Shown in pieces: positions 26,846 to 51,170 of a stretch of 64,000 nucleotides of DNA. The stretch comes from Pleodorina starrii (taxonomy: Eukaryota > Chlorophyta > Chlorophyceae > Chlamydomonadales > Volvocaceae). Under the pieces are notes generated by a model. The model had not been told where the DNA came from. It worked only from the letters and a program-made list of their open reading frames with translations, and searched no databases. The stretch is taken from positions 124,001 through 188,000 of the forward strand of contig BRXU01000011.1 in NCBI GenBank assembly GCA_030267565.1, in the 5' to 3' direction. The number at the start of each line of letters is the position of its first letter. Positions within the stretch are counted from its first letter, which is position 1. Position numbers and translations under genes: made by a program.

Positions 26846-29800
26846 TTAGAGCCAGGGCAGGCTGGCACGGCAGTTGCGGAACTGCGCCCCCACGGCGGGC
26901 TCGTAGCGGCCCGAGGCCATCGCGCCCAGCGCCTCGTCGCTGGTGACCAGCGAGTGGGCCTTATGCAGCATGAACTTGGTGGTGTTGATGCCCCGGTAGT
27001 ACACGATCTGCGGCGCGGGCGCGCAGGGAGAAGGGCAAGTGGGGGGAGTGCGCGGATCGAGGCCATCAGGGACCGGACTGGATTGGACAGGACCGGACAG
27101 GACGGCAACACAGGGCATGACAATACGGACACGCCGGACATCTCGGCAAACACCGCCCCCATTGCACCACATCCCCTTTGCCCGTCAACACCCGCCAAAT
27201 GAACACCAGCTAACACGGATTGTTACGCCGCAGATGGCGGAGGTCAGGGAGCTCACGAAGCCTTGAAGCTGCGGACGAGCGTCCCGGCAGCAATGCGCTG
27301 CGTCCGCCTACGGTGCCGTACCTGCTGAAGGGCCTGGACGCGGTTGCTGCCGGCGGCCACGCGGCCCGTGGCGATGGACGCCGCAGCCGACAGCCGGTGC
27401 GGCTGGTGCACCAGCCACGCGTCCGGCAGCGCCGCGAACGAGGTATTGGTGTAGGCCAGGGAGGCTACCTGCGTCACCTTGTCCCGGAAGCAGCCCCGAA
27501 ACCGAATGTCGTACGGCATCCGGGTGTACCGCTCCCTGTAGCAAAGAAAACGACACCCACAACAGGGCACCACGACGAAAGAACGAAACATGACGGCACG
27601 ACATTACGGCCATGTGGGTCGGAGGACTGTGCGCGCACCGGCCCGCGTTTGCGGCGTTCACCGACGCTGCGGTCTGCTACGCGGCCGATGTGCACCGGTC
27701 ACGAGCTCGCCGGCTGATTGCGGGGCGCTCACTCACTCGCTAGCTCACCTCGAGGTGATACCCCAGGGCTCGTACCCGCGCGCGTAGCGCACTCTGTACG
27801 GCTGGTCGGCACCCAACCACCTGCGAGCAAGGCACACCACCAACACCCACCAACCGTCACCGCCTGCCTGGCGCACGTGCGGCGCGTCGCCGCCGCTGGT
27901 GGCGACTGCATGGCACCACGCGCACCCGCGGGCAATGGGCCGGCAGAGGCCGGCACCGCGCGTCTCCCGGAGGCCCCTGGAGGCCTGCAGTGTCTCTCAC
28001 CGTCTGTAGTCGGTCGCGTTGTGGCCCTGCGGAAAGATGTCCTCCGAAAATGTTCGCAGGTGGCGGCTCTGCCACAGCATCGAGACCCGCTGCTTGTCGC
28101 CTGCGGCGGACCGGGACTCCATCAGTGGTCAAGAAGGCAGCCGCCGCATGTGGTCGGCCACGGCAGGAAGCCACTGATCGCCGGGCCGGTCCGGTGCGCC
28201 CGCAGGCATTGCCCCCATTACCCTGCTGCTCCTAGAGAGGCCTCTTGGGTGCTAGCAACGCACTTTGGAGCATCCCTGACATGAACTTCGGTGACTATGG
28301 GGCGGATGAAGGGACAGCGCCAATCCGGTGAGGCGGAGCCGACGGCGGAACCAGAGCGGGCGGCCAACCCACCTGCGGTCTCGTCAGCACTGCAGACTAC
28401 TATTTATTGCCAACCCACCTTTGACGGCCGACAGCACGGTGTTGTGCGCGTCCTCCGGTGTCAGGTGGGTCTCCGCCTCCCACGCCGGCAGGACCCAAAA
28501 GGTCGTCGCCGCCCGCTGCAGCGCCTCGATCCTGGTCGGCACGCGCACGCGCGCGCAAGGAAAGGCGGAAGACAGCCGCACAGCCGTAAGGCCCAGGTTC
28601 CAAACGCCCGATCCGATCTGTGGGGCATGGCTGGCCGCACTTGCACGTCTCAGCGCGTGCGCAGCTAGAGGGCAGCTAGAAACGCTTGGCTCGGCGTTGG
28701 AAATGTAAAGCCGCAGGCGGGGCTTGGTGCCCTACGTGCGACCCAGATTGTGCGACCCAGATCGCCGCATCTTCATAGCCCCGCACAGCGCACAACCCAG
28801 ATCGCCGCATCTTCATAGCCCTGCACAGCGCACAGAAGACGACACCCCCGCGCTGGTCGATCCACCCCTATCGTACCTGTTTGGGTCAGCCAGGATGCGC
28901 TTGAGCGAGTCGCTGACCGCGAGGTCGACGTCAATCATGGCCACCAGGGGCGTGCGGATGGCCAGGAGCGCGGCGTTGCGCAGCGCGTTGATGGGCACCA
29001 GGGAGGCCACCGCGCGGTCGGCCGTGATCTCCGTCAGCAGCAGCAGTCGGAGGCTGCAGGCGTCCGGGTTGGTCTCCAGCCGAGTAAACAGCTCCTGCGC
29101 GGGGAATCCCGGTGCGCGAGGAGGGGGGTCAAAGGTGGCGGCAGGAAGAGAGATGCTGACGGGCAAGACCAGTGGCGCGGCGTCGTGATTTTGTGCTAAA
29201 ATAGAGTATTTCGTTGCAAAGCGCTGGGTAGCGTAATCTAGTAGGGTGGCAAGTGATGCCTTGCACACGTGTATGGCCGTGTCTTAGTGCTGTAATCTTT
29301 GAGGGTGGGGAGGCGGTGTGGAACCCGTACCCGCCCCAGATTCACCCCTTCGGGTACCTGCAAGGTAGCTTTGTTCTCCTGAATCAGCAAGATGTTACGG
29401 TTGATTAGAAAAGTGCCCTGGGTCTGCACCAGGGGTAAGTAAACCGCCGCCGAAACCGAGCTCCCCGGAAGCATTTGACACTGCGCGCCAGTTAGCGGTC
29501 AAGTTGTCAGGGTTGTCGATGGCGGCATAACTCGTCCCTGGTTCCAGCCTTACGAGCGACTCCAAGTGGTTCAGCCGGTCCATGGTAGCCGTGCTGAAGA
29601 CCGTCAACGGGAACCTCCAGCTTTTTGCTGATCGCCACACGTGCGAGATGTTGAGGCTGTAATAACAGGGTTGTGTCATCGCATACTTGCAACGCGTTGA
29701 AGAAGAGCTGTGTAACTGCCGTTTAAATACCTTACGGGCCAGCTGGACATGAACGATTTAAATGTTGTTGGCGTCGAATTGTAGGGAGCATTGAAGCATC

Positions 29801-29951
29801 TCTGAACCAGCTCAACATCGTTCACTTGGCCTGCTGAGTCAGGTAGTGCAGTAGCAGCTATGAAGCAAGCCAACAGTGCTGACGCTAAAGCGCCAAGATG
29901 TAGCAAGGGCCTCCGTTTATATTTTACATGGCCAGGGGTGGATTCGGACAT
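26846..29951 (-). CDS. Family 49 (LARGE-like) glycosyltransferase, 9 exons, 441 aa
   Basis: Predicted Golgi type II membrane glycosyltransferase; donor and acceptor unknown in algae (animal relatives transfer GlcA). Exons: 29951-29731, 29656-29554, 29480-29358, 29094-28877, 28531-28419, 28100-28001, 27820-27749, 27535-27322, 27007-26846; phases all agree. A signal anchor spans residues about 14-34 (LLHLGALASALLACFIAATA). Then come MDRLNHLESL and SAAVYLPL, a short NALRN segment and the DVD metal-binding motif (residues 204-206). Further signatures are FWVLPAWEAE, FPQGHNATDYRRWLG, RYARGYEPWGI, RFRGCFRDKVTQ and WLVHQPHR. It ends NCRASLPWL before TAA. This is the only complete copy: exons 1-5 lie inside the first 7.2-kb repeat unit, and the breakpoint at 28183 falls in intron 5. 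The stop of the vasohibin gene lies only 236 bp upstream. Confidence 0.88.
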
Positions 29952-30187
29952 GTCTCGTCACGATGGTAGCGCCTGGTTTATGTTTCTGCAATGAATAGCC
30001 CACACCATATAAATCCCAGGGCTGCAACACGGGGAGCCATGCACATAATCTCACAAGGCATATGCAGAAACACATGGTAATTAATATTAGCCAATTCATC
30101 GTACGGCGAAAGCCGTTAGCACAGTTAGGACGAAGCCGAGACGATCGCACGTTTGCATGCATATGGTCACATTCTGCATGATTTTCG
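29952..30187 (-). promoter_or_regulatory. Short vasohibin-glycosyltransferase intergenic region with TATA-like box
   Basis: Only 236 bp separate the vasohibin stop from the glycosyltransferase ATG on the same strand. It must hold the vasohibin 3' UTR and the glycosyltransferase promoter. A TATA-like ATTTATAT on the - strand (30007-30014) lies about 56 bp before the ATG. The same region recurs in units B and C. Confidence 0.4.
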
Positions 30188-33100
30188 CTAATCATCACCC
30201 TCGCTCAAATAGTCAGCCTCGTCGCTGTCGCTATCTTCCTCCTCGTCATCCTCCTCGTAACGCGACGCAGCCACCGTCCCCGTCCCGCCCCCGCCGCTCC
30301 GCTCCTCCGCCCTGACCTGCTCCCGCAGCAACCGCGCCTGCTCCCTTGCACTGGCGCCCCGACGCGAGCCCGACACACTCGCTGCCGCCGCTGCCGCGGC
30401 GGCCACCGACGCCACACTGCCCGGATCCGAGGAGCGGCGGGGCCGTGCATGCCGCTTGAACCCTCGCGACTGTTGGCTCACCAGCTCCCGTTCCGCCGAG
30501 CGCTGGGATCCCTCTCCATCGCCACCCCTGACGGCGCCGCCGTCACTGCGGCTGGTGACGGCCGCGCCTCCGCCATCGCTGGCACTCGCCTCCTGTTAGG
30601 CCCCGCCGCCAGTGCTGCCGCCGTCGCCACCGCTGCTGCTGCCCTTCCCTCCTGTTGTCGCGTCGCCGCCAGGCGTGGCAACGTGGCCGCTGCCTACGGC
30701 CGCCCCATCCGCGGCGACGATCTCGGCGCCAATCTCGCTGGGACCCGATGCGGCAGCTGTAGCAGCAGCGCAAGAGTGAGCGCTGCTAGCGGCTGCTGCT
30801 GCAGGGCTCTGGCCACTGGGGCTGATGGGGGAGGACGACTTGGCCGCGGAAAGGGGGGCCGGAACTGAGGCTCTGAGCGGAGAGCAGACCGGAGCAGCAG
30901 CGGCGGCGGCGGCTGGCGTGCGCGACGGCGTGAGGGGCCGCCGCGGCAGCGGCGCCGGCGGCGGCAGCGGCACAGGTGGCGGCCGCCGACGTGCTGGCGA
31001 TACGGATTTGGCGCACCTGCGGCGAACCAGAACCAGCGGCCCGCCCCCTAAAGCAAAAGCGTCCGAGCACTTTCGCAAATGCGTCATGTAAGCAGCGTGG
31101 ATCTCGTCGATGCACAGCCGCGCGGACGTCCCCGGGCGACCAGGCTGCCACCGTAGCCGCGGCGCGTGTGATGAAACTCAGCAGCCCTTAATGCGCCATC
31201 CCATGCCGCATCAGCCCATGTGCGCCCCATGCGCCCCAAGGGCTGATTACCAACACGTATGCCGCACGACACGCCCCCGAAAGCCTCTGACACGCGCCGC
31301 GGCCGTATACGATAACCCACCGCACGCCCAACACGCTCACCTGGCAGCTGAGGCGGCTGCGAACACCCCCGGGGCAGTCGACGGTGCTGGCGCGCCCCCC
31401 GCGGCCTGACCCTGGCCCTGGCCCTGCCGTTGCTGCTGGTCTGCGGGGCCCCCCAGGCTGCCCTCCGATGCCGGCTTCCCGCCCATCGCCCGGAACTTCC
31501 CAGCCAGCTTACGCGCCTGGCCTGCAAGGACACGATAAAGAAGAAAAACAAGAAGAAAATGAAGAAGAAGCAGAAGAAGAAGCAGAAGAAGAAGCGTCAG
31601 CAACCGAGGCGGACGGGGCGGCGGCGGCGGCTCGTGCCGCGGTTCCAAAGGCCGAAGACCCCAACGCCCAACCCCAGCGGCGACGCCACTTGAGCCACTA
31701 CGGGTGGGGTAAGGAAACACAGAGTAAGGTGGGGACAACGAGTGCAGCGACGCCTTTCACCTACGCACATCCGCCCCGAGCTGCCCCTCCCCTCATACAC
31801 ACACAGACAAGCCCCGAGCCCCCACGCTCAAACGAGACCCCCCCCCCACCCGCGAACTTGTCCAGGGCTGCGCGGTGGGACGCCCAGGACTTGCGACCCG
31901 CCAGCGACAGACTGAGGTAGCGCCAGCAGACGGGGCCCGGGTAGTAGGTGTCGTGCTCCAGGGGCAGACCCACGTACACCTGCGGGAGAGAGAGAGGGAG
32001 AGGGAGAGAGAGGGAGAGGCCGCAGCGGGAAGGGGGAGAGGGGATGGAGAGGGAAGTGTGGGACGGGTACTGGTTGCTGCAACCAGCCGCGGCGGGGGAA
32101 GGGGGGCAGAGGGCGCAGGTGGGGCTGGTAGCACCCGGCAGGGCAGGGCAGGGCAGGCGGCGTGAGCAGAAGCGAGGTGGTGGGGCACTGAGCAGGGCGG
32201 ACCCCCCGGTGGTCCGGACAGGCTGTCAACTCGCACGCAAGGCTGGGCGCGCCAACGGCACCAGCCCTAGGGATCTGGACCACCCGGATTGCTGTGTGGC
32301 AGGATTTCGTCGACGCACCCGGACGAGCGAGTGCCACCAACGTTCGTACGATTTCTTGTACTCCGAAACCAGATCTGCATGTTGGAGGGGGGGAAAGAGG
32401 ATTGGAGGGCCAAAAAGGGGGCCCAGGACGGAAAGCATGCGGTCACCAGGACGCGGCGATGTGGCGATGTCATTTTCAAGAGTCGGGGCGCTGCCGCCAG
32501 GATGCAAGCCATGAAACAGTCCTGTGCCGGCAATCCAGGCGCCACCGCTGCATGCGTCGGCACCCGTGTCTGAGCCCCGTATCCCAGCCCGCAACCGTGC
32601 CGTACCCGCCAGGCTGTCGTACACCAAGTCCTTATCCATCAGCTCTGGCCGGCGGCTGAGCCCCAGCGCCCCCCACTTGCGGCTGGGGGAGTGAAACACC
32701 GCAAGCACGATATGCCTGGGGGTTTGGAGGGTAATTAAAACGGCGGGGGCGGGGTTCGGTAGTCCAGGGGAGGGACGGAGAAAATGGCGGTGGACATGGG
32801 AGGCGCGAGGGGAGCATGGGCGCGGGAGGGGGGGGCGATTCCTTGGGGACGATGCCAACCCTGCCGTACAGGTGAGGTACGGCAGGGTGCCTCACACACA
32901 CAAACACACACCTGCACACATACATGCGCTCTGCCCCATTGCGCGACACAATGGTGGTGGACGGTGGCGGCAGCTGTTAAGAAAAGAGCACGCGTTACGC
33001 CAGCTTACGCGACCCGACCCGTGGGTCGCGACCCGACCCACCCCACCCCAACCCCCCCGACCCGACCCGTGGGTCGCGGCCCTAAGAACCCTGCTCCGCA

Positions 33101-34522
33101 CCTGTACGTCTGCCCCTGCACGGTGCTCTTGAAGGCCAGCGGCAATCGGTCCAGCTCCGTCCAACCGGCTGTCAGCAGCGCTCCCAGGAACACAGCCTGG
33201 CGGGGGGCCGACCGCCCCCGCGGATGGGGAGGGTGGAACCCGGGCGGGATGGGGGAGAGGGGAGCTGGGGACCACCGGTACATCGATCGGCCGCGATACG
33301 ATACGTTCGCCGGGCCGCAGTCAGACTGATTCGAATCGCCCTCGATCTTCGGCCCCATGGCAACGCCCCATGGCAAGTTACGCGAATGCAGCCCTCTTAA
33401 CTCACTAAAAGTAAGCACCCCACCTCAACCCCAACCCCACCCCACCTCACCTCGAGACACTTGATGGGCAGCGCCGCCCGCAGCGCCTCCCGTGCGGTTT
33501 CCATGATGCGGGAGAAGGGCCGCGACTTGGAGACGTTGTAGTAGTAGCCCGGCGTGTGGTTGTACTGCAGGGAGTTGATCACGTGCTGCGACAAGGAGCG
33601 AGCGAGCGGGCGAGCAGGAGCGAGCGGCCACTAGTGCTTAGCAGGTGGCCCCACCCTCACCGCCTCCCCCTGACCGCTCTTCTACGGTTTTACATTCAAC
33701 ACGGGTTAGGAGCCCACCAGCCCCCCGGGTTGTTTCCTTGCCAGGCCTCGATCCGATAGATCAGGGTCTTCTGCAACAATCGCAAACTGTCCGGCAAAGG
33801 CAGGGACAGCGGCTCCTACCAATGCGAATGTCGTCTCGGTTACTTCTCTGGGTTTCTTTAGGGTTTTCGCCCTTCTCCTTAAGACGTTAAGCGCCCCCCA
33901 CCTGCACCGCTTGGAGCCGCTGCTGCGGGCCGCCCGGCTTGCCGTCGCCGCCCTTGCCGCCCTCTATGAGGCCGCGCGGCACAACCGGACGAGGCGGCGG
34001 CCCCAGGCCCAGATGCGACAGCTCCGCCTCGCTGCACTCCTTGATCAGGCGTTCCTGGGGATCGCAAGAGCGAGTAGGGATGGATGGATGGATGGATGGA
34101 TGGATGGATGTGTGGGTGGTTGAATGGCTAGGGTGTCATTGCCGCATGGGACGCGGGAGTGTGTTAGCGAAGTGTGTTAGCGAGCAGTGTGCTCCGTATG
34201 GTTCGTGCAGTGCGCAGCGTGTTATGGCGTGTGCAGGCGTGCCTGCGCTCGGGGCCTACGCGGGAGGAATGTACGGGAGGGAGTGTACGGTGGCGAGAGT
34301 ACGGTCCCCACAGAAAGCATGCGGGTGCAGGGAGTTGCGGACCTCGACCACGCGGGTTAAGTGATACCGCCCGCGCGTTTGAGTTTTGTAGCCAGCGACG
34401 TCAACCGACCACGAGCGAGGGGCAACGAGCTCATGACTCACCGCCTCTGGAATTTTTTCGTCAGGTAGGGGAAGGCTGTTCAGAAGTCGCTTCAGCTGTA
34501 AGGCTGATGCAGAAAGATCCAT
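30188..34522 (-). CDS. VASH: Vasohibin-like tubulin tyrosine carboxypeptidase, copy A (tail truncated)
   Basis: Vasohibins remove the C-terminal Tyr of alpha-tubulin, normally with the small partner SVBP (not seen here). Exons: 34522-34442, 34054-33902, 33585-33451, 33196-33102, 32715-32606, 32374-32319, 31979-31850, 31521-31341, 31016-30188; all phases agree. Matching segments in vasohibin order are RLQAVQHVINSLQYNHT, SRPFSRIMETAREALRAALP, IKCLE, RLPLAFKSTVQGQTYRHIVL, GALGLSRRPELMDK and EYKKSYERWWH. The catalytic triad is Cys121 (PIKCLE), His156 (RHIVL) and Ser175 (GLSRR). The Cys-His spacing of 35 equals that of human VASH1. Copy A carries TAA at 30598-30596 where copies B and C have CAA, so it would end at residue 453 instead of 589. 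The catalytic core is intact; a low-complexity tail with an acidic C-terminus is lost. The annotated end is the ancestral stop. Confidence 0.92.
34079..34110. repeat. (GGAT)n microsatellite in vasohibin intron 1, copy A
   Basis: A tetranucleotide run in vasohibin intron 1 (34055-34441). The same length occurs in copy B (about 41309-41340); copy C is two repeats (8 bp) shorter (about 48533-48556). Confidence 0.9.
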
Positions 34523-34861
34523 GGCCCTAGGTCAAGGAGGCCGCCGCTCTATCGTTGGCATTACATTTCAGCTACACATGTCGCCGAAGCAAAACACTGA
34601 TGGAGTACGCATCATTTGACCTTGATAAGGGTCCTTCGAATATGTGCCGCAGTAAGGTGAGGACGCGAAAAACATTCAAGGGTTTCAACGACGGAAAAGC
34701 TCCAGCAGCAAGATCGTGCTTTTAGTCTATTTGATACCACATGGCAAGAAGTCCATGTCTTAAGGAGAGTTGCCAAGCATATAAGCAACCATGTTTGTGA
34801 TGATGATGATGATGATGATGATTTACAAGCTTCAGTGAGCTCGTACGGCTCAAACGAACCC
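34523..34861. other. 5' flank of vasohibin copy A
   Basis: No gene recognised. It contains a (GAT)n run near 34798-34822 that is 6 bp longer than in copies B and C, and leads into the palindrome. It presumably holds the promoter; no clear TATA box seen. Confidence 0.4.
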
Positions 34862-35391
34862 GTTCGCTAAGGAAGTGGCTGGTATGTTCGACAAGTTGAA
34901 GGCGGACATGACGGGAGAGATGGTGATCATCATCGAACAGAAGATTGATCAGAAAATGGAGCAGCTATACCGCCCGGGAAAGCTGCTTGTTCGGGCTCCT
35001 CCGGCGATCATTGAACAACTGGCCTCGACATTGGACAAAGCGATTCAGGATACCAGCTGCTTTGGCAAGATACACGTCGACGTCATCCCCCGGCTGGATT
35101 CCCGCGTGGCGCCCAGCCTCTGTAGGCTGGATGGTCGGTGCCGCCGCGCGGGAATCCAGCCGGGGGATGACGTCGACGTGTATCTTGCCAAAGCAGCTGG
35201 TATCCTGAATCGCTTTGTCCAATGTCGAGGCCAGTTGTTCAATGATCGCCGGAGGAGCCCGAACAAGCAGCTTTCCCGGGCGGTATAGCTGCTCCATTTT
35301 CTGATCAATCTTCTGTTCGATGATGATCACCATCTCTCCCGTCATGTCCGCCTTCAACTTGTCGAACATACCAGCCACTTCCTTAGCGAAC
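34862..35391. repeat. 530-bp palindrome A (245-bp arms, 40-bp spacer)
   Basis: Inverted repeat with arms 34862-35106 and 35147-35391, identical by reading, around a 40-bp spacer that itself contains a small AGCC/GGCT stem. Both arms encode, outward to inward, the same segment (for example MFDKLKADMTGEMVIIIEQK), a fragment of the ORF found complete at its 5' end at 49405-50058. It can form a long hairpin in DNA or RNA. Confidence 0.96.
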
Positions 35392-35412
35392 AGTACACAT
35401 TGCTTATCCATA

Positions 35413-37181
35413 GGGCCGGTCCGGTGCGCCCGCAGGCATTGCCCCCATTACCCTGCTGCTCCTAGAGAGGCCTCTTGGGTGCTAGCAACGCACTTTGGAG
35501 CATCCCTGACATGAACTTCGGTGACTATGGGGCGGATGAAGGGACAGCGCCAATCCGGTGAGGCGGAGCCGACGGCGGAACCAGAGCGGGCGGCCAACCC
35601 ACCTGCGGTCTCGTCAGCACTGCAGACTACTATTTATTGCCAACCCACCTTTGACGGCCGACAGCACGGTGTTGTGCGCGTCCTCCGGTGTCAGGTGGGT
35701 CTCCGCCTCCCACGCCGGCAGGACCCAAAAGGTCGTCGCCGCCCGCTGCAGCGCCTCGATCCTGGTCGGCACGCGCACGCGCGCGCAAGGAAAGGCGGAA
35801 GACAGCCGCACAGCCGTAAGGCCCAGGTTCCAAACGCCCGATCCGATCTGTGGGGCATGGCTGGCCGCACTTGCACGTCTCAGCGCGTGCGCAGCTAGAG
35901 GGCAGCTAGAAACGCTTGGCTCGGCGTTGGAAATGTAAAGCCGCAGGCGGGGCTTGGTGCCCTACGTGCGACCCAGATTGTGCGACCCAGATCGCCGCAT
36001 CTTCATAGCCCCGCACAGCGCACAACCCAGATCGCCGCATCTTCATAGCCCTGCACAGCGCACAGAAGACGACACCCCCGCGCTGGTCGATCCACCCCTA
36101 TCGTACCTGTTTGGGTCAGCCAGGATGCGCTTGAGCGAGTCGCTGACCGCGAGGTCGACGTCAATCATGGCCACCAGGGGCGTGCGGATGGCCAGGAGCG
36201 CGGCGTTGCGCAGCGCGTTGATGGGCACCAGGGAGGCCACCGCGCGGTCGGCCGTGATCTCCGTCAGCAGCAGCAGTCGGAGGCTGCAGGCGTCCGGGTT
36301 GGTCTCCAGCCGAGTAAACAGCTCCTGCGCGGGGAATCCCGGTGCGCGAGGAGGGGGGTCAAAGGTGGCGGCAGGAAGAGAGATGCTGACGGGCAAGACC
36401 AGTGGCGCGGCGTCGTGATTTTGTGCTAAAATAGAGTATTTCGTTGCAAAGCGCTGGGTAGCGTAATCTAGTAGGGTGGCAAGTGATGCCTTGCACACGT
36501 GTATGGCCGTGTCTTAGTGCTGTAATCTTTGAGGGTGGGGAGGCGGTGTGGAACCCGTACCCGCCCCAGATTCACCCCTTCGGGTACCTGCAAGGTAGCT
36601 TTGTTCTCCTGAATCAGCAAGATGTTACGGTTGATTAGAAAAGTGCCCTGGGTCTGCACCAGGGGTAAGTAAACCGCCGCCGAAACCGAGCTCCCCGGAA
36701 GCATTTGACACTGCGCGCCAGTTAGCGGTCAAGTTGTCAGGGTTGTCGATGGCGGCATAACTCGTCCCTGGTTCCAGCCTTACGAGCGACTCCAAGTGGT
36801 TCAGCCGGTCCATGGTAGCCGTGCTGAAGACCGTCAACGGGAACCTCCAGCTTTTTGCTGATCGCCACACGTGCGAGATGTTGAGGCTGTAATAACAGGG
36901 TTGTGTCATCGCATACTTGCAACGCGTTGAAGAAGAGCTGTGTAACTGCCGTTTAAATACCTTACGGGCCAGCTGGACATGAACGATTTAAATGTTGTTG
37001 GCGTCGAATTGTAGGGAGCATTGAAGCATCTCTGAACCAGCTCAACATCGTTCACTTGGCCTGCTGAGTCAGGTAGTGCAGTAGCAGCTATGAAGCAAGC
37101 CAACAGTGCTGACGCTAAAGCGCCAAGATGTAGCAAGGGCCTCCGTTTATATTTTACATGGCCAGGGGTGGATTCGGACAT
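35413..37181 (-). pseudogene. 3'-truncated glycosyltransferase copy (exons 1-5), unit B
   Basis: Exons 37181-36961, 36886-36784, 36710-36588, 36324-36107 and 35761-35649 are copies of glycosyltransferase exons 1-5, with intact promoter, signal anchor and DVD motif. The gene then ends in partial intron 5 at the repeat junction (35413), continuing into the palindrome of unit A. Exons 6-9, with the WLVHQPHR segment and C-terminus, are absent. Read-through of the exon 5 donor meets a stop within about 10 codons, so a functional enzyme is unlikely. Confidence 0.9.
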
Positions 37182-37417
37182 GTCTCGTCACGATGGTAGC
37201 GCCTGGTTTATGTTTCTGCAATGAATAGCCCACACCATATAAATCCCAGGGCTGCAACACGGGGAGCCATGCACATAATCTCACAAGGCATATGCAGATA
37301 CACATGGTAATTAATATTAGCCAATTCATCGTACGGCGAAAGCCGTTAGCACAGTTAGGACGAAGCCGAGACGATCGCACGTTTGCATGCATATGGTCAC
37401 ATTCTGCATGATTTTCG

Positions 37418-40400: not shown

Positions 40401-41752
40401 GTCAGCAGCGCTCCCAGGAACACAGCCTGGCGGGGGGCCGACCGCCCCCGCGGATGGGGAGGGTGGAACCCGGGCGGGATGGGGGAGAGGGGAGCTGGGG
40501 ACCACCGGTACATCGATCGGCCGCGATACGATACGTTCGCCGGGCCGCAGTCAGACTGATTCGAATCGCCCTCGATCTTCGGCCCCATGGCAACGCCCCA
40601 TGGCAAGTTACGCGAATGCAGCCCTCTTAACTCACTAAAAGTAAGCACCCCACCTCAACCCCAACCCCACCCCACCTCACCTCGAGACACTTGATGGGCA
40701 GCGCCGCCCGCAGCGCCTCCCGTGCGGTTTCCATGATGCGGGAGAAGGGCCGCGACTTGGAGACGTTGTAGTAGTAGCCCGGCGTGTGGTTGTACTGCAG
40801 GGAGTTGATCACGTGCTGCGACAAGGAGCGAGCGAGCGGGCGAGCAGGAGCGAGCGGCCACTAGTGCTTAGCAGGTGGCCCCACCCTCACCGCCTCCCCC
40901 TGACCGCTCTTCTACGGTTTTACATTCAACACGGGTTAGGAGCCCACCAGCCCCCCGGGTTGTTTCCTTGCCAGGCCTCGATCCGATAGATCAGGGTCTT
41001 CTGCAACAATCGCAAACTGTCCGGCAAAGGCAGGGACAGCGGCTCCTACCAATGCGAATGTCGTCTCGGTTACTTCTCTGGGTTTCTTTAGGGTTTTCGC
41101 CCTTCTCCTTAAGACGTTAAGCGCCCCCCACCTGCACCGCTTGGAGCCGCTGCTGCGGGCCGCCCGGCTTGCCGTCGCCGCCCTTGCCGCCCTCTATGAG
41201 GCCGCGCGGCACAACCGGACGAGGCGGCGGCCCCAGGCCCAGATGCGACAGCTCCGCCTCGCTGCACTCCTTGATCAGGCGTTCCTGGGGATCGCAAGAG
41301 CGAGTAGGGATGGATGGATGGATGGATGGATGGATGGATGTGTGGGTGGTTGAATGGCTAGGGTGTCATTGCCGCATGGGACGCGGGAGTGTGTTAGCGA
41401 AGTGTGTTAGCGAGCAGTGTGCTCCGTATGGTTCGTGCAGTGCGCAGCGTGTTATGGCGTGTGCAGGCGTGCCTGCGCTCGGGGCCTACGCGGGAGGAAT
41501 GTACGGGAGGGAGTGTACGGTGGCGAGAGTACGGTCCCCACAGAAAGCATGCGGGTGCAGGGAGTTGCGGACCTCGACCACGCGGGTTAAGTGATACCGC
41601 CCGCGCGTTTGAGTTTTGTAGCCAGCGACGTCAACCGACCACGAGCGAGGGGCAACGAGCTCATGACTCACCGCCTCTGGAATTTTTTCGTCAGGTAGGG
41701 GAAGGCTGTTCAGAAGTCGCTTCAGCTGTAAGGCTGATGCAGAAAGATCCAT
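37418..41752 (-). CDS. VASH: Vasohibin-like tubulin tyrosine carboxypeptidase, copy B, 589 aa
   Basis: Exons: 41752-41672, 41284-41132, 40815-40681, 40426-40332, 39945-39836, 39604-39549, 39209-39080, 38751-38571, 38246-37418. Full-length version: triad Cys121, His156 and Ser175 within the first 310 residues, then a Pro/Ala/Ser/Gly-rich tail of about 275 residues ending in a Glu/Asp-rich stretch (EEDDEEEDSDSDEADYL). The tail contains KRHARPRRSS, a possible nuclear localisation or microtubule-binding basic patch. Copy B differs from C by one tail residue (Ile for Val, base 37927). The last intron boundary is supported by continuity of phase from the exon at 38571. The tail is not found in animal vasohibins and its function is unknown. 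Confidence 0.93.
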
Positions 41753-42085
41753 GGCCCTAGGTCAAGGAGGCCGCCGCTCTATCGTTGGCATTACATTTCA
41801 GCTACACATGTCGCCGAAGCAAAACACTGATGGAGTACGCATCATTTGACCTTGATAAGGGTCCTTCGAATATGTGCCGCAGTAAGGTGAGGACGCGAAA
41901 AACATTCAAGGGTTTCAACGACGGAAAAGCTCCAGCAGCAAGATCGTGCTTTTAGTCTATTTGATACCACATGGCAAGAAGTCCATGTCTTAAGGAGAGT
42001 TGCCAAGCATATAAGCAACCATGTTTGTGATGATGATGATGATGATTTACAAGCTTCAGTGAGCTCGTACGGCTCAAACGAACCC

Positions 42086-42615
42086 GTTCGCTAAGGAAGT
42101 GGCTGGTATGTTCGACAAGTTGAAGGCGGACATGACGGGAGAGATGGTGATCATCATCGAACAGAAGATTGATCAGAAAATGGAGCAGCTATACCGCCCG
42201 GGAAAGCTGCTTGTTCGGGCTCCTCCGGCGATCATTGAACAACTGGCCTCGACATTGGACAAAGCGATTCAGGATACCAGCTGCTTTGGCAAGATACACG
42301 TCGACGTCATCCCCCGGCTGGATTCCCGCGTGGCGCCCAGCCTCTGTAGGCTGGATGGTCGGTGCCGCCGCGCGGGAATCCAGCCGGGGGATGACGTCGA
42401 CGTGTATCTTGCCAAAGCAGCTGGTATCCTGAATCGCTTTGTCCAATGTCGAGGCCAGTTGTTCAATGATCGCCGGAGGAGCCCGAACAAGCAGCTTTCC
42501 CGGGCGGTATAGCTGCTCCATTTTCTGATCAATCTTCTGTTCGATGATGATCACCATCTCTCCCGTCATGTCCGCCTTCAACTTGTCGAACATACCAGCC
42601 ACTTCCTTAGCGAAC
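42086..42615. repeat. 530-bp palindrome B
   Basis: Same inverted repeat as in unit A: arms 42086-42330 and 42371-42615, 40-bp spacer. It lies about 330 bp upstream of vasohibin copy B and just before the junction with unit C. Confidence 0.96.
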
Positions 42616-42636
42616 AGTACACATTGCTTATCCATA

Positions 42637-44405
42637 GGGCCGGTCCGGTGCGCCCGCAGGCATTGCCCCCATTACCCTGCTGCTCCTAGAGAGGCCTCTT
42701 GGGTGCTAGCAACGCACTTTGGAGCATCCCTGACATGAACTTCGGTGACTATGGGGCGGATGAAGGGACAGCGCCAATCCGGTGAGGCGGAGCCGACGGC
42801 GGAACCAGAGCGGGCGGCCAACCCACCTGCGGTCTCGTCAGCACTGCAGACTACTATTTATTGCCAACCCACCTTTGACGGCCGACAGCACGGTGTTGTG
42901 CGCGTCCTCCGGTGTCAGGTGGGTCTCCGCCTCCCACGCCGGCAGGACCCAAAAGGTCGTCGCCGCCCGCTGCAGCGCCTCGATCCTGGTCGGCACGCGC
43001 ACGCGCGCGCAAGGAAAGGCGGAAGACAGCCGCACAGCCGTAAGGCCCAGGTTCCAAACGCCCGATCCGATCTGTGGGGCATGGCTGGCCGCACTTGCAC
43101 GTCTCAGCGCGTGCGCAGCTAGAGGGCAGCTAGAAACGCTTGGCTCGGCGTTGGAAATGTAAAGCCGCAGGCGGGGCTTGGTGCCCTACGTGCGACCCAG
43201 ATTGTGCGACCCAGATCGCCGCATCTTCATAGCCCCGCACAGCGCACAACCCAGATCGCCGCATCTTCATAGCCCTGCACAGCGCACAGAAGACGACACC
43301 CCCGCGCTGGTCGATCCACCCCTATCGTACCTGTTTGGGTCAGCCAGGATGCGCTTGAGCGAGTCGCTGACCGCGAGGTCGACGTCAATCATGGCCACCA
43401 GGGGCGTGCGGATGGCCAGGAGCGCGGCGTTGTGCAGCGCGTTGATGGGCACCAGGGAGGCCACCGCGCGGTCGGCCGTGATCTCCGTCAGCAGCAGCAG
43501 TCGGAGGCTGCAGGCGTCCGGGTTGGTCTCCAGCCGAGTAAACAGCTCCTGCGCGGGGAATCCCGGTGCGCGAGGAGGGGGGTCAAAGGTGGCGGCAGGA
43601 AGAGAGATGCTGACGGGCAAGACCAGTGGCGCGGCGTCGTGATTTTGTGCTAAAATAGAGTATTTCGTTGCAAAGCGCTGGGTAGCGTAATCTAGTAGGG
43701 TGGCAAGTGATGCCTTGCACACGTGTATGGCCGTGTCTTAGTGCTGTAATCTTTGAGGGTGGGGAGGCGGTGTGGAACCCGTACCCGCCCCAGATTCACC
43801 CCTTCGGGTACCTGCAAGGTAGCTTTGTTCTCCTGAATCAGCAAGATGTTACGGTTGATTAGAAAAGTGCCCTGGGTCTGCACCAGGGGTAAGTAAACCG
43901 CCGCCGAAACCGAGCTCCCCGGAAGCATTTGACACTGCGCGCCAGTTAGCGGTCAAGTTGTCAGGGTTGTCGATGGCGGCATAACTCGTCCCTGGTTCCA
44001 GCCTTACGAGCGACTCCAAGTGGTTCAGCCGGTCCATGGTAGCCGTGCTGAAGACCGTCAACGGGAACCTCCAGCTTTTTGCTGATCGCCACACGTGCGA
44101 GATGTTGAGGCTGTAATAACAGGGTTGTGTCATCGCATACTTGCAACGCGTTGAAGAAGAGCTGTGTAACTGCCGTTTAAATACCTTACGGGCCAGCTGG
44201 ACATGAACGATTTAAATGTTGTTGGCGTCGAATTGTAGGGAGCATTGAAGCATCTCTGAACCAGCTCAACATCGTTCACTTGGCCTGCTGAGTCAGGTAG
44301 TGCAGTAGCAGCTATGAAGCAAGCCAACAGTGCTGACGCTAAAGCGCCAAGATGTAGCAAGGGCCTCCGTTTATATTTTACATGGCCAGGGGTGGATTCG
44401 GACAT
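42637..44405 (-). pseudogene. 3'-truncated glycosyltransferase copy (exons 1-5), unit C
   Basis: Exons 44405-44185, 44110-44008, 43934-43812, 43548-43331 and 42985-42873. Same truncation in intron 5 as the unit B copy. In addition, base 43433 (T for C) changes Arg to His in the NALRN segment next to the DVD motif, consistent with relaxed constraint. Confidence 0.9.
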
Positions 44406-44641
44406 GTCTCGTCACGATGGTAGCGCCTGGTTTATGTTTCTGCAATGAATAGCCCACACCATATAAATCCCAGGGCTGCAACACGGGGAGCCATGCACAT
44501 AATCTCACAAGGCATATGCAGATACACATGGTAATTAATATTAGCCAATTCATCGTACGGCGAAAGCCGTTAGCACAGTTAGGACGAAGCCGAGACGATC
44601 GCACGTTTGCATGCATATGGTCACATTCTGCATGATTTTCG

Positions 44642-47600
44642 CTAATCATCACCCTCGCTCAAATAGTCAGCCTCGTCGCTGTCGCTATCTTCCTCCTCGT
44701 CATCCTCCTCGTAACGCGACGCAGCCACCGTCCCCGTCCCGCCCCCGCCGCTCCGCTCCTCCGCCCTGACCTGCTCCCGCAGCAACCGCGCCTGCTCCCT
44801 TGCACTGGCGCCCCGACGCGAGCCCGACACACTCGCTGCCGCCGCTGCCGCGGCGGCCACCGACGCCACACTGCCCGGATCCGAGGAGCGGCGGGGCCGT
44901 GCATGCCGCTTGAACCCTCGCGACTGTTGGCTCACCAGCTCCCGTTCCGCCGAGCGCTGGGATCCCTCTCCATCGCCACCCCTGACGGCGCCGCCGTCAC
45001 TGCGGCTGGTGACGGCCGCGCCTCCGCCATCGCTGGCACTCGCCTCCTGTTGGGCCCCGCCGCCAGTGCTGCCGCCGTCGCCACCGCTGCTGCTGCCCTT
45101 CCCTCCTGTTGTCGCGTCGCCGCCAGGCGTGGCAACGTGGCCGCTGCCTACGGCCGCCCCATCCGCGGCGACGATCTCGGCGCCAATCTCGCTGGGACCC
45201 GATGCGGCAGCTGTAGCAGCAGCGCAAGAGTGAGCGCTGCTAGCGGCTGCTGCTGCAGGGCTCTGGCCACTGGGGCTGATGGGGGAGGACGACTTGGCCG
45301 CGGAAAGGGGGGCCGGAACTGAGGCTCTGAGCGGAGAGCAGACCGGAGCAGCAGCGGCGGCGGCGGCTGGCGTGCGCGACGGCGTGAGGGGCCGCCGCGG
45401 CAGCGGCGCCGGCGGCGGCAGCGGCACAGGTGGCGGCCGCCGACGTGCTGGCGATACGGATTTGGCGCACCTGCGGCGAACCAGAACCAGCGGCCCGCCC
45501 CCTAAAGCAAAAGCGTCCGAGCACTTTCGCAAATGCGTCATGTAAGCAGCGTGGATCTCGTCGATGCACAGCCGCGCGGACGTCCCCGGGCGACCAGGCT
45601 GCCACCGTAGCCGCGGCGCGTGTGATGAAACTCAGCAGCCCTTAATGCGCCATCCCATGCCGCATCAGCCCATGTGCGCCCCATGCGCCCCAAGGGCTGA
45701 TTACCAACACGTATGCCGCACGACACGCCCCCGAAAGCCTCTGACACGCGCCGCGGCCGTATACGATAACCCGCCGCACGCCCAACACGCTCACCTGGCA
45801 GCTGAGGCGGCTGCGAACACCCCCGGGGCAGTCGACGGTGCTGGCGCGCCCCCCGCGGCCTGACCCTGGCCCTGGCCCTGCCGTTGCTGCTGGTCTGCGG
45901 GGCCCCCCAGGCTGCCCTCCGATGCCGGCTTCCCGCCCATCGCCCGGAACTTCCCAGCCAGCTTACGCGCCTGGCCTGCAAGGACACGATAAAGAAGAAA
46001 AACAAGAAGAAAATGAAGAAGAAGCAGAAGAAGAAGCAGAAGAAGAAGCGTCAGCAACCGAGGCGGACGGGGCGGCGGCGGCGGCTCGTGCCGCGGTTCC
46101 AAAGGCCGAAGACCCCAACGCCCAACCCCAGCGGCGACGCCACTTGAGCCACTACGGGTGGGGTAAGGAAACACAGAGTAAGGTGGGGACAACGAGTGCA
46201 GCGACGCCTTTCACCTACGCACATCCGCCCCGAGCTGCCCCTCCCCTCATACACACACAGACAAGCCCCGAGCCCCCACGCTCAAACGAGACCCCCCCCC
46301 CACCCGCGAACTTGTCCAGGGCTGCGCGGTGGGACGCCCAGGACTTGCGACCCGCCAGCGACAGACTGAGGTAGCGCCAGCAGACGGGGCCCGGGTAGTA
46401 GGTGTCGTGCTCCAGGGGCAGACCCACGTACACCTGCGGGAGAGAGAGAGGGAGAGGGAGAGAGAGGGAGAGGCCGCAGCGGGAAGGGGGAGAGGGGATG
46501 GAGAGGGAAGTGTGGGACGGGTACTGGTTGCTGCAACCAGCCGCGGCGGGGGAAGGGGGGCAGAGGGCGCAGGTGGGGCTGGTAGCACCCGGCAGGGCAG
46601 GGCAGGGCAGGCGGCGTGAGCAGAAGCGAGGTGGTGGGGCACTGAGCAGGGCGGACCCCCCGGTGGTCCGGACAGGCTGTCAACTCGCACGCAAGGCTGG
46701 GCGCGCCAACGGCACCAGCCCTAGGGATCTGGACCACCCGGATTGCTGTGTGGCAGGATTTCGTCGACGCACCCGGACGAGCGAGTGCCACCAACGTTCG
46801 TACGATTTCTTGTACTCCGAAACCAGATCTGCATGTTGGAGGGGGGGAAAGAGGATTGGAGGGCCAAAAAGGGGGCCCAGGACGGAAAGCATGCGGTCAC
46901 CAGGACGCGGCGATGTGGCGATGTCATTTTCAAGAGTCGGGGCGCTGCCGCCAGGATGCAAGCCATGAAACAGTCCTGTGCCGGCAATCCAGGCGCCACC
47001 GCTGCATGCGTCGGCACCCGTGTCTGAGCCCCGTATCCCAGCCCGCAACCGTGCCGTACCCGCCAGGCTGTCGTACACCAAGTCCTTATCCATCAGCTCT
47101 GGCCGGCGGCTGAGCCCCAGCGCCCCCCACTTGCGGCTGGGGGAGTGAAACACCGCAAGCACGATATGCCTGGGGGTTTGGAGGGTACTTAAAACGGCGG
47201 GGGCGGGGTTCGGTAGTCCAGGGGAGGGACGGAGAAAATGGCGGTGGACATGGGAGGCGCGAGGGGAGCATGGGCGCGGGAGGGGGGGGCGATTCCTTGG
47301 GGACGATGCCAACCCTGCCGTACAGGTGAGGTACGGCAGGGTGCCTCACACACACAAACACACACCTGCACACATACATGCGCTCTGCCCCATTGCGCGA
47401 CACAATGGTGGTGGACGGTGGCGGCAGCTGTTAAGAAAAGAGCACGCGTTACGCCAGCTTACGCGACCCGACCCGTGGGTCGCGACCCGACCCACCCCAC
47501 CCCAACCCCCCCGACCCGACCCGTGGGTTGCGGCCCTAAGAACCCTGCTCCGCACCTGTACGTCTGCCCCTGCACGGTGCTCTTGAAGGCCAGCGGCAAT

Positions 47601-48968
47601 CGGTCCAGCTCCGTCCAACCGGCTGTCAGCAGCGCTCCCAGGAACACAGCCTGGCGGGGGGCCGACCGCCCCCGCGGATGGGGAGGGTGGAACCCGGGCG
47701 GGATGGGGGAGAGGGGAGCTGGGGACCACCGGTACATCGATCGGCCGCGATACGATACGTTCGCCGGGCCGCAGTCAGACTGATTCGAATCGCCCTCGAT
47801 CTTCGGCCCCATGGCAACGCCCCATGGCAAGTTACGCGGATGCAGCCCTCTTAACTCACTAAAAGTAAGCACCCCACCTCAACCCCAACCCCACCCCACC
47901 TCACCTCGAGACACTTGATGGGCAGCGCCGCCCGCAGCGCCTCCCGTGCGGTTTCCATGATGCGGGAGAAGGGCCGCGACTTGGAGACGTTGTAGTAGTA
48001 GCCCGGCGTGTGGTTGTACTGCAGGGAGTTGATCACGTGCTGCGACAAGGAGCGAGCGAGCGGGCGAGCAGGAGCGAGCGGCCACTAGTGCTTAGCAGGT
48101 GGCCCCACCCTCAACGCCTCCCCCTGACCGCTCTTCTACGGTTTTACATTCAACACGGGTTAGGAGCCCACCAGCCCCCCGGGTTGTTTCCTTGCCAGGC
48201 CTCGATCCGATAGATCAGGGTCTTCTGCAACAATCGCAAACTGTCCGGCAAAGGCAGGGACAGCGGCTCCTACCAATGCGAATGTCGTCTCGGTTACTTC
48301 TCTGGGTTTCTTTAGGGTTTTCGCCCTTCTCCTTAAGACGTTAAGCGCCCCCCACCTGCACCGCTTGGAGCCGCTGCTGCGGGCCGCCCGGCTTGCCGTC
48401 GCCGCCCTTGCCGCCCTCTATGAGGCCGCGCGGCACAACCGGACGAGGCGGCGGCCCCAGGCCCAGATGCGACAGCTCCGCCTCGCTGCACTCCTTGATC
48501 AGGCGTTCCTGGGGATCGCAAGAGCGAGTAGGGATGGATGGATGGATGGATGGATGTGTGGGTGGTTGAATGGCTAGGGTGTCATTGCCGCATGGGACGC
48601 GGGAGTGTGTTAGCGAAGTGTGTTAGCGAGCAGTGTGCTCCGTATGGTTCGTGCAGTGCGCAGCGTGTTATGGCGTGTGCAGGCGTGCCTGCGCTCGGGG
48701 CCTACGCGGGAGGAATGTACGGGAGGGAGTGTACGGTGGCGAGAGTACGGTCCCCACAGAAAGCATGCGGGTGCAGGGAGTTGCGGACCTCGACCACGCG
48801 GGTTAAGTGATACCGCCCGCGCGTTTGAGTTTTGTAGCCAGCGACGTCAACCGACCACGAGCGAGGGGCAACGAGCTCATGACTCACCGCCTCTGGAATT
48901 TTTTCGTCAGGTAGGGGAAGGCTGTTCAGAAGTCGCTTCAGCTGTAAGGCTGATGCAGAAAGATCCAT
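44642..48968 (-). CDS. VASH: Vasohibin-like tubulin tyrosine carboxypeptidase, copy C, 589 aa
   Basis: Exons: 48968-48888, 48508-48356, 48039-47905, 47650-47556, 47169-47060, 46828-46773, 46433-46304, 45975-45795, 45470-44642. Full-length reading frame with the same triad as copies A and B. It is the copy next to the unduplicated right flank, so probably the ancestral position. Intronic differences include 47188 (19 bp upstream of the exon 5 acceptor, in a branch-point-like TTTTAATTAC) and 48114 in intron 2. The coding sequence matches copy A except for the absence of the nonsense base. Confidence 0.93.
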
Positions 48969-49301
48969 GGCCCTAGGTCAAGGAGGCCGCCGCTCTATCG
49001 TTGGCATTACATTTCAGCTACACATGTCGCCGAAGCAAAACACTGATGGAGTACGCATCATTTGACCTTGATAAGGGTCCTTCGAATATGTGCCGCAGTA
49101 AGGTGAGGACGCGAAAAACATTCAAGGGTTTCAACGACGGAAAAGCTCCAGCAGCAAGATCGTGCTTTTAGTCTATTTGATACCACATGGCAAGAAGTCC
49201 ATGTCTTAAGGAGAGTTGCCAAGCATATAAGCAACCATGTTTGTGATGATGATGATGATGATTTACAAGCTTCAGTGAGCTCGTACGGCTCAAACGAACC
49301 C

Positions 49302-49831
49302 GTTCGCTAAGGAAGTGGCTGGTATGTTCGACAAGTTGAAGGCGGACATGACGGGAGAGATGGTGATCATCATCGAACAGAAGATTGATCAGAAAATGGA
49401 GCAGCTATACCGCCCGGGAAAGCTGCTTGTTCGGGCTCCTCCGGCGATCATTGAACAACTGGCCTCGACATTGGACAAAGCGATTCAGGATACCAGCTGC
49501 TTTGGCAAGATACACGTCGACGTCATCCCCCGGCTGGATTCCCGCGTGGCGCCCAGCCTCTGTAGGCTGGATGGTCGGTGCCGCCGCGCGGGAATCCAGC
49601 CGGGGGATGACGTCGACGTGTATCTTGCCAAAGCAGCTGGTATCCTGAATCGCTTTGTCCAATGTCGAGGCCAGTTGTTCAATGATCGCCGGAGGAGCCC
49701 GAACAAGCAGCTTTCCCGGGCGGTATAGCTGCTCCATTTTCTGATCAATCTTCTGTTCGATGATGATCACCATCTCTCCCGTCATGTCCGCCTTCAACTT
49801 GTCGAACATACCACCCACTTCCTTAGCGAAC
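49302..49831. repeat. 530-bp palindrome C (one arm mismatch)
   Basis: Arms 49302-49546 and 49587-49831. The right arm has C at 49814 where the matching position of palindromes A and B has G, so this palindrome has one mismatch. The change turns Ala to Gly in the encoded AGMFDKL (GGMFDKL). Confidence 0.95.
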
Positions 49832-50058
49832 AGTACACATTGCTTATCCATAGCCGCGCTTAGGGCGGCGTCGAGGTCCGCCCTCGTGAGAGGTTGGGCC
49901 ATGGCGGCTTCAAACGCTGCCCGGAGCTCCTGGCGTCTAGCGACTACCTGGGCGTCTAGTTTTTGAGCCTTGGAGCTAAAGCAGTTGTCGCTCTGAGGAC
50001 TGTTAAAACGTTTGCTACCTTTCCGTCCCGACTTCGGTGATCTAACTGGTGAGGGCAT
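49405..50058 (-). pseudogene. Unidentified ORF, 5' part intact, interrupted by inverted duplication
   Basis: ATG at 50058 opens a 217-codon frame. The first about 155 residues look like real protein: a basic, Ser/Pro-rich start (PVRSPKSGRKGSKRF), then an Ala/Glu/Lys-rich, probably helical segment (AQVVARRQELRAAFEAAMAQ; MFDKLKADMTGEMVIIIEQK). After the DVIPRLDSR segment it enters the palindrome spacer and then reads its own sequence backwards, so the true C-terminus is missing. I do not recognise the family; first ORF of a mobile element is one possibility. Units A and B keep only the part inside the palindrome plus 21 bp. Confidence 0.55.
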
Positions 50059-51170
50059 TAGCGGTGCATTTCAGCGGTGCTTCGTGTGTTACGGATGTCA
50101 CGGATTCACTATTCCGCCTCGCTTCAATGCCCGCGAGTTTAAGTGTCGTACACCGTGTCGGGGTTGCCATTGACCCATCGCTGTTGCCTTGATGGCATCG
50201 TTCGTGGAAATGCTCCGGGCTGTAGGCCGGAAGGGCTGTATGTTTCCAAGTAGGCAAGGTGCTGCTTTTGCAAACATTTTTTTGTGCGTGAGAGACGCAT
50301 AGAGGGGATACGGAGGATCATCCCGAGGTCGACGTCCTTCCCTTCAGCCACCATGACACACGAACTCTCTGGCTGGGACGGTATGTGGTGCTTTCCCAAG
50401 TGACACCCTTGTCTGCCTTGCCCGCCGTACACCCCTGTACGCCCCTGAGCATTGAACCTCATTGAAGTACCCGTCTGACCCGTCTGATATACCGGTGCCT
50501 GCCGACGCAATGGTAACCTGTACTGGAACAGGGGGGATGCTGGGATTGCTAGCCGGCTAGGTTATAGTAGCATGCACCGTGTAGCCCACTAATGCTCGAT
50601 GGCTGCCGGACACCGTAGGTAGCAACTCAGTTACGTTGTCCGTCAAGATATTAAATTACACACATCAGGAGTGCCGGGTTTTGAGTCGCCCGGGTACCCG
50701 GGCGAGTTCACCTTGCTGAGCTGTGCGGGGTGCAGCATTTGCGGCGGCAGTTAGGCGACCCTCAACGGATCGCCAACAGCCTGCAAGTCCTAGGCCTCCG
50801 GCTTACTACAAGGGCATCTGACTTCGGTTTGTATGAAATTTACTTTTATATTAATATATTTACTTTTTGAAAAGGATTATTTCAGTGCTGCAATATCGGG
50901 ATTCGGTATTTGTACTGTGCCACAAATTAGTAAACCGTCGACGACGTGGTCAAGATGTCATAACTGCAGCAGTGAAAATTGTTAAGTGACGACAGAACCC
51001 CCTGGTCGTAGTAAGCTCTAACTGGCTGTGACGGTTTGGCGCGAAACATTTACTGCGCTGTTTGCACGCAAATTCGGCTGATGGCAAATGCCTGAGAGTT
51101 AAATGATCGTAAAAATTTTCATGGGTGGATAGATGTTAGCCTGCGGGAGCCTACGTAGAGGGCCCCGACC
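50059..51170. other. Intergenic, no gene recognised
   Basis: Between the divergent unidentified ORF (-) and the helicase gene (+). GC content is lower, with an AT-rich stretch near 50833-50875. A 123-codon open frame on the - strand (50139-50510) has no recognisable motif. The helicase promoter should lie at the right end. Confidence 0.45.

Follow-up and report, generated by a model that had tools for sequence, protein, structure and literature searches.

A young tandem triplication of a vasohibin-bearing segment in the volvocine alga Pleodorina starrii

This report concerns a 64,000-nucleotide stretch of the genome of the volvocine green alga Pleodorina starrii (hereafter the window), in which three nearly identical direct units of about 7.2 kb each carry a gene for a vasohibin. 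The window corresponds to positions 124001-188000 of contig C11 in the 136,057,477-base assembly of the bisexual strain NIES-4479 (95 contigs, 136.1 Mb; PMC10256686). The array contains two full-length vasohibin genes (units 2 and 3), one vasohibin gene that has lost its tail (unit 1), one intact glycosyltransferase-49 (GT49, LARGE-like) gene and two GT49 stumps. We consider it likely that this array is a real, young and local tandem amplification that had a non-homologous start near a palindrome, and that a second copy of the array, on contig C9, is assembly redundancy, leaving three vasohibins.

Results and discussion

Three direct units that differ at ten bases

An earlier note on this DNA, made from the sequence alone, proposed a very recent direct tandem triplication with a vasohibin gene in a volvocine flagellate, and alignment of the units supports that proposal. 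The three units lie where the note had placed them (Table 1). They were said to differ at about ten bases and two microsatellites; the alignment gives 10 substitutions, together with length differences of 8 bp in a (GGAT)n run and 6 bp in a (TGA)n run. All four positions that had been singled out (30069, 30598, 37927 and 47188) are true unit differences. Unit 1 alone carries three of the substitutions (30069, 30598 and 31319), unit 2 alone carries one (37927), and the remaining six are found only in unit 3; the pairwise differences are 4, 7 and 9 substitutions in approximately 7.2 kb.

Assembly is well known to fail at tandem units that are nearly identical, and this assembly is probably redundant elsewhere, as discussed below. 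The array might therefore be misassembled, with a true copy number of one, two or more than three. We regard this as improbable, given that ten substitutions are specific to single units, which also agrees with the earlier argument against a trivial duplication of reads. In addition, the assembly was built from PacBio high-fidelity reads with Illumina polishing, and the C9 and C11 copies both give the same three units (the two copies may share reads). High-fidelity reads are usually longer than the 7.2-kb unit.

Table 1. Features of the array and its edges, in window coordinates
Feature	Position	Strand	Remarks
Unit 1	28183..35412	-	7230 bp; vasohibin copy 1 with premature stop, and 5' half of the array's only complete GT49 gene
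Unit 2	35413..42636	-	7224 bp; full-length vasohibin copy 2 (Ile421) and truncated GT49 fragment
Unit 3	42637..49852	-	7216 bp; full-length vasohibin copy 3 (Val421) and truncated GT49 fragment
Vasohibin gene, unit 1	30188..34522	-	9 exons; frame stopped at codon 454
Vasohibin gene, unit 2	37418..41752	-	9 exons, 589 aa
Vasohibin gene, unit 3	44642..48968	-	9 exons, 589 aa
Premature TAA	30596..30598	-	Unit 1; CAA in units 2 and 3
Complete GT49 gene	26846..29658	-	Spans the array's left boundary; breakpoint 28183 between two exons
Truncated GT49 fragment, unit 2	35413..36888	-	5' half only
Truncated GT49 fragment, unit 3	42637..44112	-	5' half only; Arg-to-His
Join region of chimera PLESTB_000888400	34442..36813	-	Exact match to the deposited protein
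New junction 1	35412..35413	.	Unit end to unit start; 1-bp microhomology
New junction 2	42636..42637	.	Identical to junction 1; 1-bp microhomology
Palindrome, unit 1	34862..35391	.	530 bp; 96.4% identity with its reverse complement, counting gaps
Palindrome, unit 2	42086..42615	.	Same 530-bp palindrome
Palindrome, unit 3	49302..49831	.	Same palindrome, 96.1%
LINE-type retrotransposon 5' fragment	49541..50071	-	Crosses the array's right boundary, from unit 3 into the flank

A vasohibin with a long C-terminal tail

The identity of the gene, which had been proposed as a vasohibin, is borne out by its Pfam family, by sequences in the PDB and by its predicted fold. The protein scores 191 bits against the vasohibin family PF14822 (cut-off 24) over residues 71-255, and a search of PDB sequences finds VASH2 with E = 1.3e-42. 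An AlphaFold model (overall predicted local distance difference test score, pLDDT, 66.8; predicted template-modelling score, pTM, 0.53) has a confident core and a poorly predicted tail, with pLDDT above 90 in 19 of the first 27 ten-residue blocks. When this model was used with Foldseek, the top 23 matches were VASH1 or VASH2 chains, with template-modelling scores, normalised to the target, of up to 0.83; one of these chains is titled only "hypothetical protease", but the same chain is named VASH1 in the PDB sequence search.

Cys121, His156 and Ser175, which by the human residue numbers we take to be the catalytic triad, are present in all three units and align with VASH2. In an alignment of 29 sequences, His156 and Ser175 are invariant and Cys121 is conserved in at least 90%; the deposited Tetrabaena vasohibin model is without the residue at this position. 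The earlier claim that every unit holds a complete vasohibin with an intact triad is thus right as to the triad, but not as to completeness, because the frame of unit 1 stops at codon 454 of 589. The deposited protein PLESTB_000805100 is identical to the unit-3 vasohibin, from which the unit-2 protein differs only at residue 421 (Ile versus Val).

The Pleodorina gene shares with VASH1 and VASH2 the family score, sequence, fold and Cys/His/Ser residues. It differs in encoding an extended C-terminal region of low complexity, which has a predicted helix and an acidic end. A further possible difference is that the vasohibin partner SVBP was not recognised in the Pleodorina genome by a profile search, whose single match reached 17.3 bits (cut-off 27); this is a weak test for a short gene split by introns.

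A premature stop removes the tail in unit 1

The unit-1 substitution at base 30598 removes 136 residues from the protein and leaves the catalytic domain in place; the deposited protein PLESTB_000888400 ends at this stop. In the full-length protein, the tail has its predicted helix at residues 536-553, followed by the acidic end. Conservation of the tail was assessed in seven relatives by aligning its 136 residues with the last 150 of each relative, and by comparing the score with those of 500 shuffles. The tail is conserved in Volvox africanus (score 222 versus a shuffle maximum of 85) and more weakly in Tetrabaena (118 versus 112), with none of the 500 shuffles reaching the score in either case. 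It is borderline in the relatives P0008 and P0005, for which 5 and 18 shuffles, respectively, reach the score, and no conservation is seen in P0007 (61 of 500), P0019 (98) or P0010 (254).

Since the vasohibin-SVBP complex is reported to contact the microtubule lattice via disordered N- and C-terminal regions (PMC11770126), the tail-less unit-1 protein may, by analogy, bind microtubules differently. We also considered that the helix at 536-553 might provide an SVBP-like segment in cis; this is not supported.

A GT49 gene broken at the edge of the array

Each unit also carries the 5' half of the GT49 gene, which the earlier note overlooked. This gene crosses the left edge of the array, and is therefore whole only in unit 1. 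Its upper limit in Table 1, 29658, is the onset of similarity to a Gonium protein rather than a resolved 5' end, and its stop is near 26846. In Pleodorina, the scan with the PF13896 profile covered the half gene within PLESTB_000888400, which scores 40.8 bits (cut-off 27), and the Gonium homologue scores 110.3 bits. The deposited Gonium model has a vasohibin followed by a GT49 within one predicted protein, and this shared order supports the view that the arrangement of vasohibin then GT49 would be ancestral. Elsewhere in the genome, GT49-like exon matches of equal score lie 19.5 kb apart at C24:1697836 and C24:1717366, and are possibly another GT49 tandem pair.

PLESTB_000888400 is a GT49-vasohibin chimera that was either created by a duplication junction or predicted across one, because it can be rebuilt exactly from four GT49 exons of unit 2, a 5-base exon (34442-34446) and vasohibin exons 2-9 of unit 1. 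If such products are made, then 5' exons transcribed from the GT49 promoter would be spliced to the following vasohibin copy, and the array would contain new chimeric genes. The deposited protein is reproduced with GT/AG splice sites, and the annotation pipeline drew on RNA sequencing. However, the structure requires the 5-base exon, leaves out the greater part of vasohibin exon 1 and terminates at the stop in unit 1, and the Gonium model likewise fuses both genes, in the opposite order. Neighbouring genes are often fused by gene predictors, and we consider it very unlikely that the chimera is a genuine gene product. A broader proposal is that the triplication has already diversified function, through expressed GT49-vasohibin chimeras, one of which is also tail-less and might for that reason act on different microtubules. 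Part of this proposal is that the GT49 promoter and 5' exons of units 2 and 3 are directly upstream of the unit-1 and unit-2 vasohibins. This, too, strikes us as a long shot.

Junctions, palindrome and a proposed origin

The sequence around one inner junction is the same as that around the other for 609 bases on the left side and 796 on the right. The single shared base is a G, which at the right end of the array is base 49853, immediately beyond unit 3. When the outer edges of the array were compared over 300 bases on each side, no match better than 10 bases was found, and homologous recombination between flanking repeats was rejected on this basis. At the right boundary a 5' fragment of a long interspersed nuclear element (LINE), and at the left boundary the GT49 exons, run through without interruption. 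Therefore, the outer edges appear to be ancestral, and the inner junctions alone are new.

Near the right edge of each unit is a 530-bp palindrome, formed by an inverted copy of the LINE 5' fragment and ending 21 bp inside the unit. Its arms differ by 2.4-2.8% substitutions, far more than the 0.055-0.125% between units, so the palindrome is older than the units. The LINE fragment matches copies elsewhere in the genome at approximately 90%; in one of these copies (L009), an endonuclease/exonuclease/phosphatase domain is found downstream of the matching fragment (45 bits).

We propose that an ancestral P. starrii lineage had a single vasohibin gene, with GT49 immediately downstream of it, and that a 7.2-kb stretch, reaching from between two GT49 exons to 21 bp past the LINE-derived palindrome, was tandem-duplicated. 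Since the break relied on no more than 1 bp in common, the initial event was probably a template switch during replication, or end joining, at a palindrome where replication had stalled. The third unit would then have arisen by a later unequal exchange between the two copies, which fits the identity of the second junction to the first.

We rejected a transposon carrying the vasohibin gene, since LINE copies read in frame encode their own endonuclease instead, and since the matches listed in a whole-genome DNA search with unit 1, in which 38 of 354 candidates were scored, are of three kinds: the LINE 5' fragment at the right edge of the unit, a 40-base repeat beside it and GT49-like exons. This search did not list the array copies, and the copy counts given here therefore rest on the family search described below.

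At 34798-34862, a (TGA)n run is followed by the 40-base sequence, which occurs at 100% identity in at least 15 places in the genome. Situated just beyond the palindrome, it may belong to the same LINE, as its 3' end and tail; if so, 49244-50071 would be one internally rearranged insertion.

Age and selection

The substitutions are spread evenly along the unit (Kolmogorov-Smirnov p = 0.92). Gene conversion as the cause of the near identity was rejected given this lack of clustering, although with 10 sites the test is weak. Branch lengths of 3, 1 and 6 substitutions do not depart significantly from evenness (p = 0.15), and we therefore claim no order of duplication. A single-nucleotide mutation rate of 11.56e-10 has been reported for Chlamydomonas incerta (PMC8383909); with this rate, which comes from another genus than Pleodorina, the separation of the units would date back 2.4 to 5.4 x 10^5 generations.

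Three of the 10 substitutions fall in coding exons, compared with approximately 3.1 expected by length (for exons as modelled, the GT49 5' end being unresolved). All three alter a protein: the nonsense change and the Ile/Val change in vasohibin, and the Arg/His change in a GT49 stump. In this small sample there is no sign of constraint since the duplication, and the extra copies have probably been near-neutral so far.

The second array on contig C9

A whole-genome search for the vasohibin family finds it at two places, with six exon matches at each (12 in all): the C11 array and its equal on C9. Over 80 kb aligned, C9 and C11 have 0 mismatches, and indels occur at two places, both of them simple repeats (10 bases in all at window positions 5287-5302, and 6 bases at 58963). 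Base 1 of C11 corresponds to base 584103 of C9, so that the start of C11 falls inside the shared block, and nine more sampled C11 points, from base 1 to 356,300, are identical to C9.

The shared block thus extends over at least 356 kb (C11:1-356300 versus C9:584103-about 940000), and the genes of this window are therefore deposited twice in the assembly. For nine C11 points between 380 kb and 2.9 Mb, the C9 stretch compared contained no match. The point at 370 kb is a 14-base satellite found on both contigs, and two sampled stretches read N.

As judged from these comparisons, the C9 array is most likely assembly redundancy, and the true count would be three vasohibins, not six. The NIES-4479 assembly is described as a combination of Flye and NextDenovo assemblies that were merged by quickmerge, polished with Illumina reads and processed with Purge Haplotigs (PMC10256686). 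Duplicated genes are reported to remain after quickmerge if a merge fails or if a single contig overlaps two references (PMC9635638), and the use of quickmerge here makes redundancy of C9 and C11 probable.

A second pair of contigs has a similar block. Within C7:1.80-2.66 Mb, each of the eight points sampled is identical to C1, with a near-constant offset, and the other seven of the 15 points sampled, outside the block, had no match in the C1 stretch compared. One point that was searched genome-wide has exactly two occurrences. The 32 listed matches of the HAP2-GCS1 domain fall into 16 twin pairs, each shared between C1 and C7 and located within this block (loci L080-L109). A GCS1 cluster has been reported as duplicated in the bisexual genotype, with about 130 kb compared (PMC10256686). 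Because the twin pairs are inside the C1/C7 block, the published cluster duplication may be assembly redundancy, or may be part of a duplication far larger than about 130 kb. Large identical blocks on two contig pairs thus bear on the published GCS1/HAP2 cluster duplication in this genotype.

Alternatively, C9 and C11 could represent two real loci, produced by a segmental duplication of at least 356 kb that carried the array and gave six vasohibin copies. In accord with this idea, C11 runs past the shared block into sequence without a counterpart at that place in C9, and one 300-base C11 sample has no match longer than approximately 100 bases in any other contig. The indels at two places in 80 kb also separate the contigs, and the C1/C7 block is interior to both of its contigs rather than at their ends. 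Moreover, Purge Haplotigs had already been applied. Against two loci, there are zero substitutions in 80 kb, and differences are confined to simple repeats, as would be seen in two assemblers' versions of one locus; C11 begins exactly within the shared block, which ends near the 14-base satellite; and quickmerge was used. The assembly is also larger, at 136.1 Mb, than those of the female (135.0) and male (134.8), and the excess of 1.1-1.3 Mb is about that of both blocks, although this is weak evidence because all are fragmented. Overall, redundancy was rated likelier than two real loci, and we consider the latter unlikely.

Function and dosage

In Chlamydomonas, mutants of a vasohibin-like gene lose much of their detyrosinated tubulin and have defects in intraflagellar transport (PMC11770126). 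That gene (VashL, Cre05.g241751_4532) and the Pleodorina gene are both green-algal vasohibin-like genes, and VashL, the loss of which lowers detyrosinated tubulin in Chlamydomonas, may be the counterpart of the Pleodorina gene. The two alpha-tubulin gene ends found in Pleodorina read GEEY, so the substrate end EEY is present, and alpha-tubulin is likely the substrate of the Pleodorina vasohibin.

The array might have been kept by selection if the joint activity of three vasohibins increases the detyrosination of tubulin in flagella or in the cytoplasm. The catalytic core is intact in all three units, both alpha-tubulin ends finish in EEY and the pathway matters in a relative, as the Chlamydomonas mutants indicate. 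We nevertheless consider adaptive dosage to be very unlikely, in that one of the three copies is truncated by a nonsense change, coding change is not depleted since duplication (with 10 substitutions only), and no separate SVBP scored above the cut-off in the weak profile search, while mammalian vasohibins are reported to require SVBP (PMC12714142). Raised vasohibin dosage is possible in Pleodorina, but at most two full-length genes would be available for it, and on this point the earlier note overstated the case.

Points that weigh against our interpretation

Several points weigh against a local triplication in two steps with a redundant C9 copy. The copy number is that of the assembly. Purge Haplotigs had been run to remove duplicated contigs, although this program acts on whole contigs. 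The C9 and C11 copies could instead be a true duplication, which would have to be less than approximately 16,000 generations old at the Chlamydomonas incerta rate. The palindrome is implicated by its position, and the amplification could have occurred in one step, instead of by duplication followed by unequal exchange. Finally, neutrality is judged from only 10 substitutions.

Flanking sequences

Outside the array, approximately 62 copies of the 18-base satellite GTCAAGGGGTCAGGTCAG occupy 18228-19351. A diverged tandem array, with approximately 80-87% identity between copies, runs from near 63069 past the end of the window to about 1.7 kb into the adjoining locus L030. On the plus strand, 51159-56108 is a stop-to-stop open frame of 1650 codons that is rich in simple repeats and has no Pfam match. 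It is divergent in orientation from the unit-3 vasohibin gene, with which it may share its upstream region. Among seven flanking open reading frames tried, no Pfam family scored over its cut-off.

Conclusions

Young tandem duplications with a broken edge gene constitute a general class, and the array resembles its members: the repeats are direct, the breakpoints fall between exons and within a transposon, microhomology is 1 bp, the edge gene is intact once and truncated in its other copies, and one copy shows an early loss-of-function change. We see no categorical difference from this class; the nearby 530-bp palindrome is notable as a plausible trigger. The array therefore looks like a further example of a well-known type: a young duplication of the ordinary sort, and not an evolved increase in dosage.

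A literature search for vasohibin with Volvox or Pleodorina found no paper (subscription journals were mostly outside its coverage), and a search for vasohibin with gene duplication and tandem found no title on algae. The main text of the Pleodorina genome paper contains neither "vasohibin" nor "tubulin" (PMC10256686).

Gene models in this region need care, as one vasohibin copy is truncated and one deposited protein is chimeric. If function has already diversified, the array would be a natural example, from a single strain, of tandem duplication giving new isoforms to a tubulin-code enzyme. Should the array be confirmed, it would provide a clean, datable example of the start of a tandem amplification in which one copy is already broken, with breakpoints at a palindrome and between exons, in a gene family that is tied to ciliary transport in a relative.

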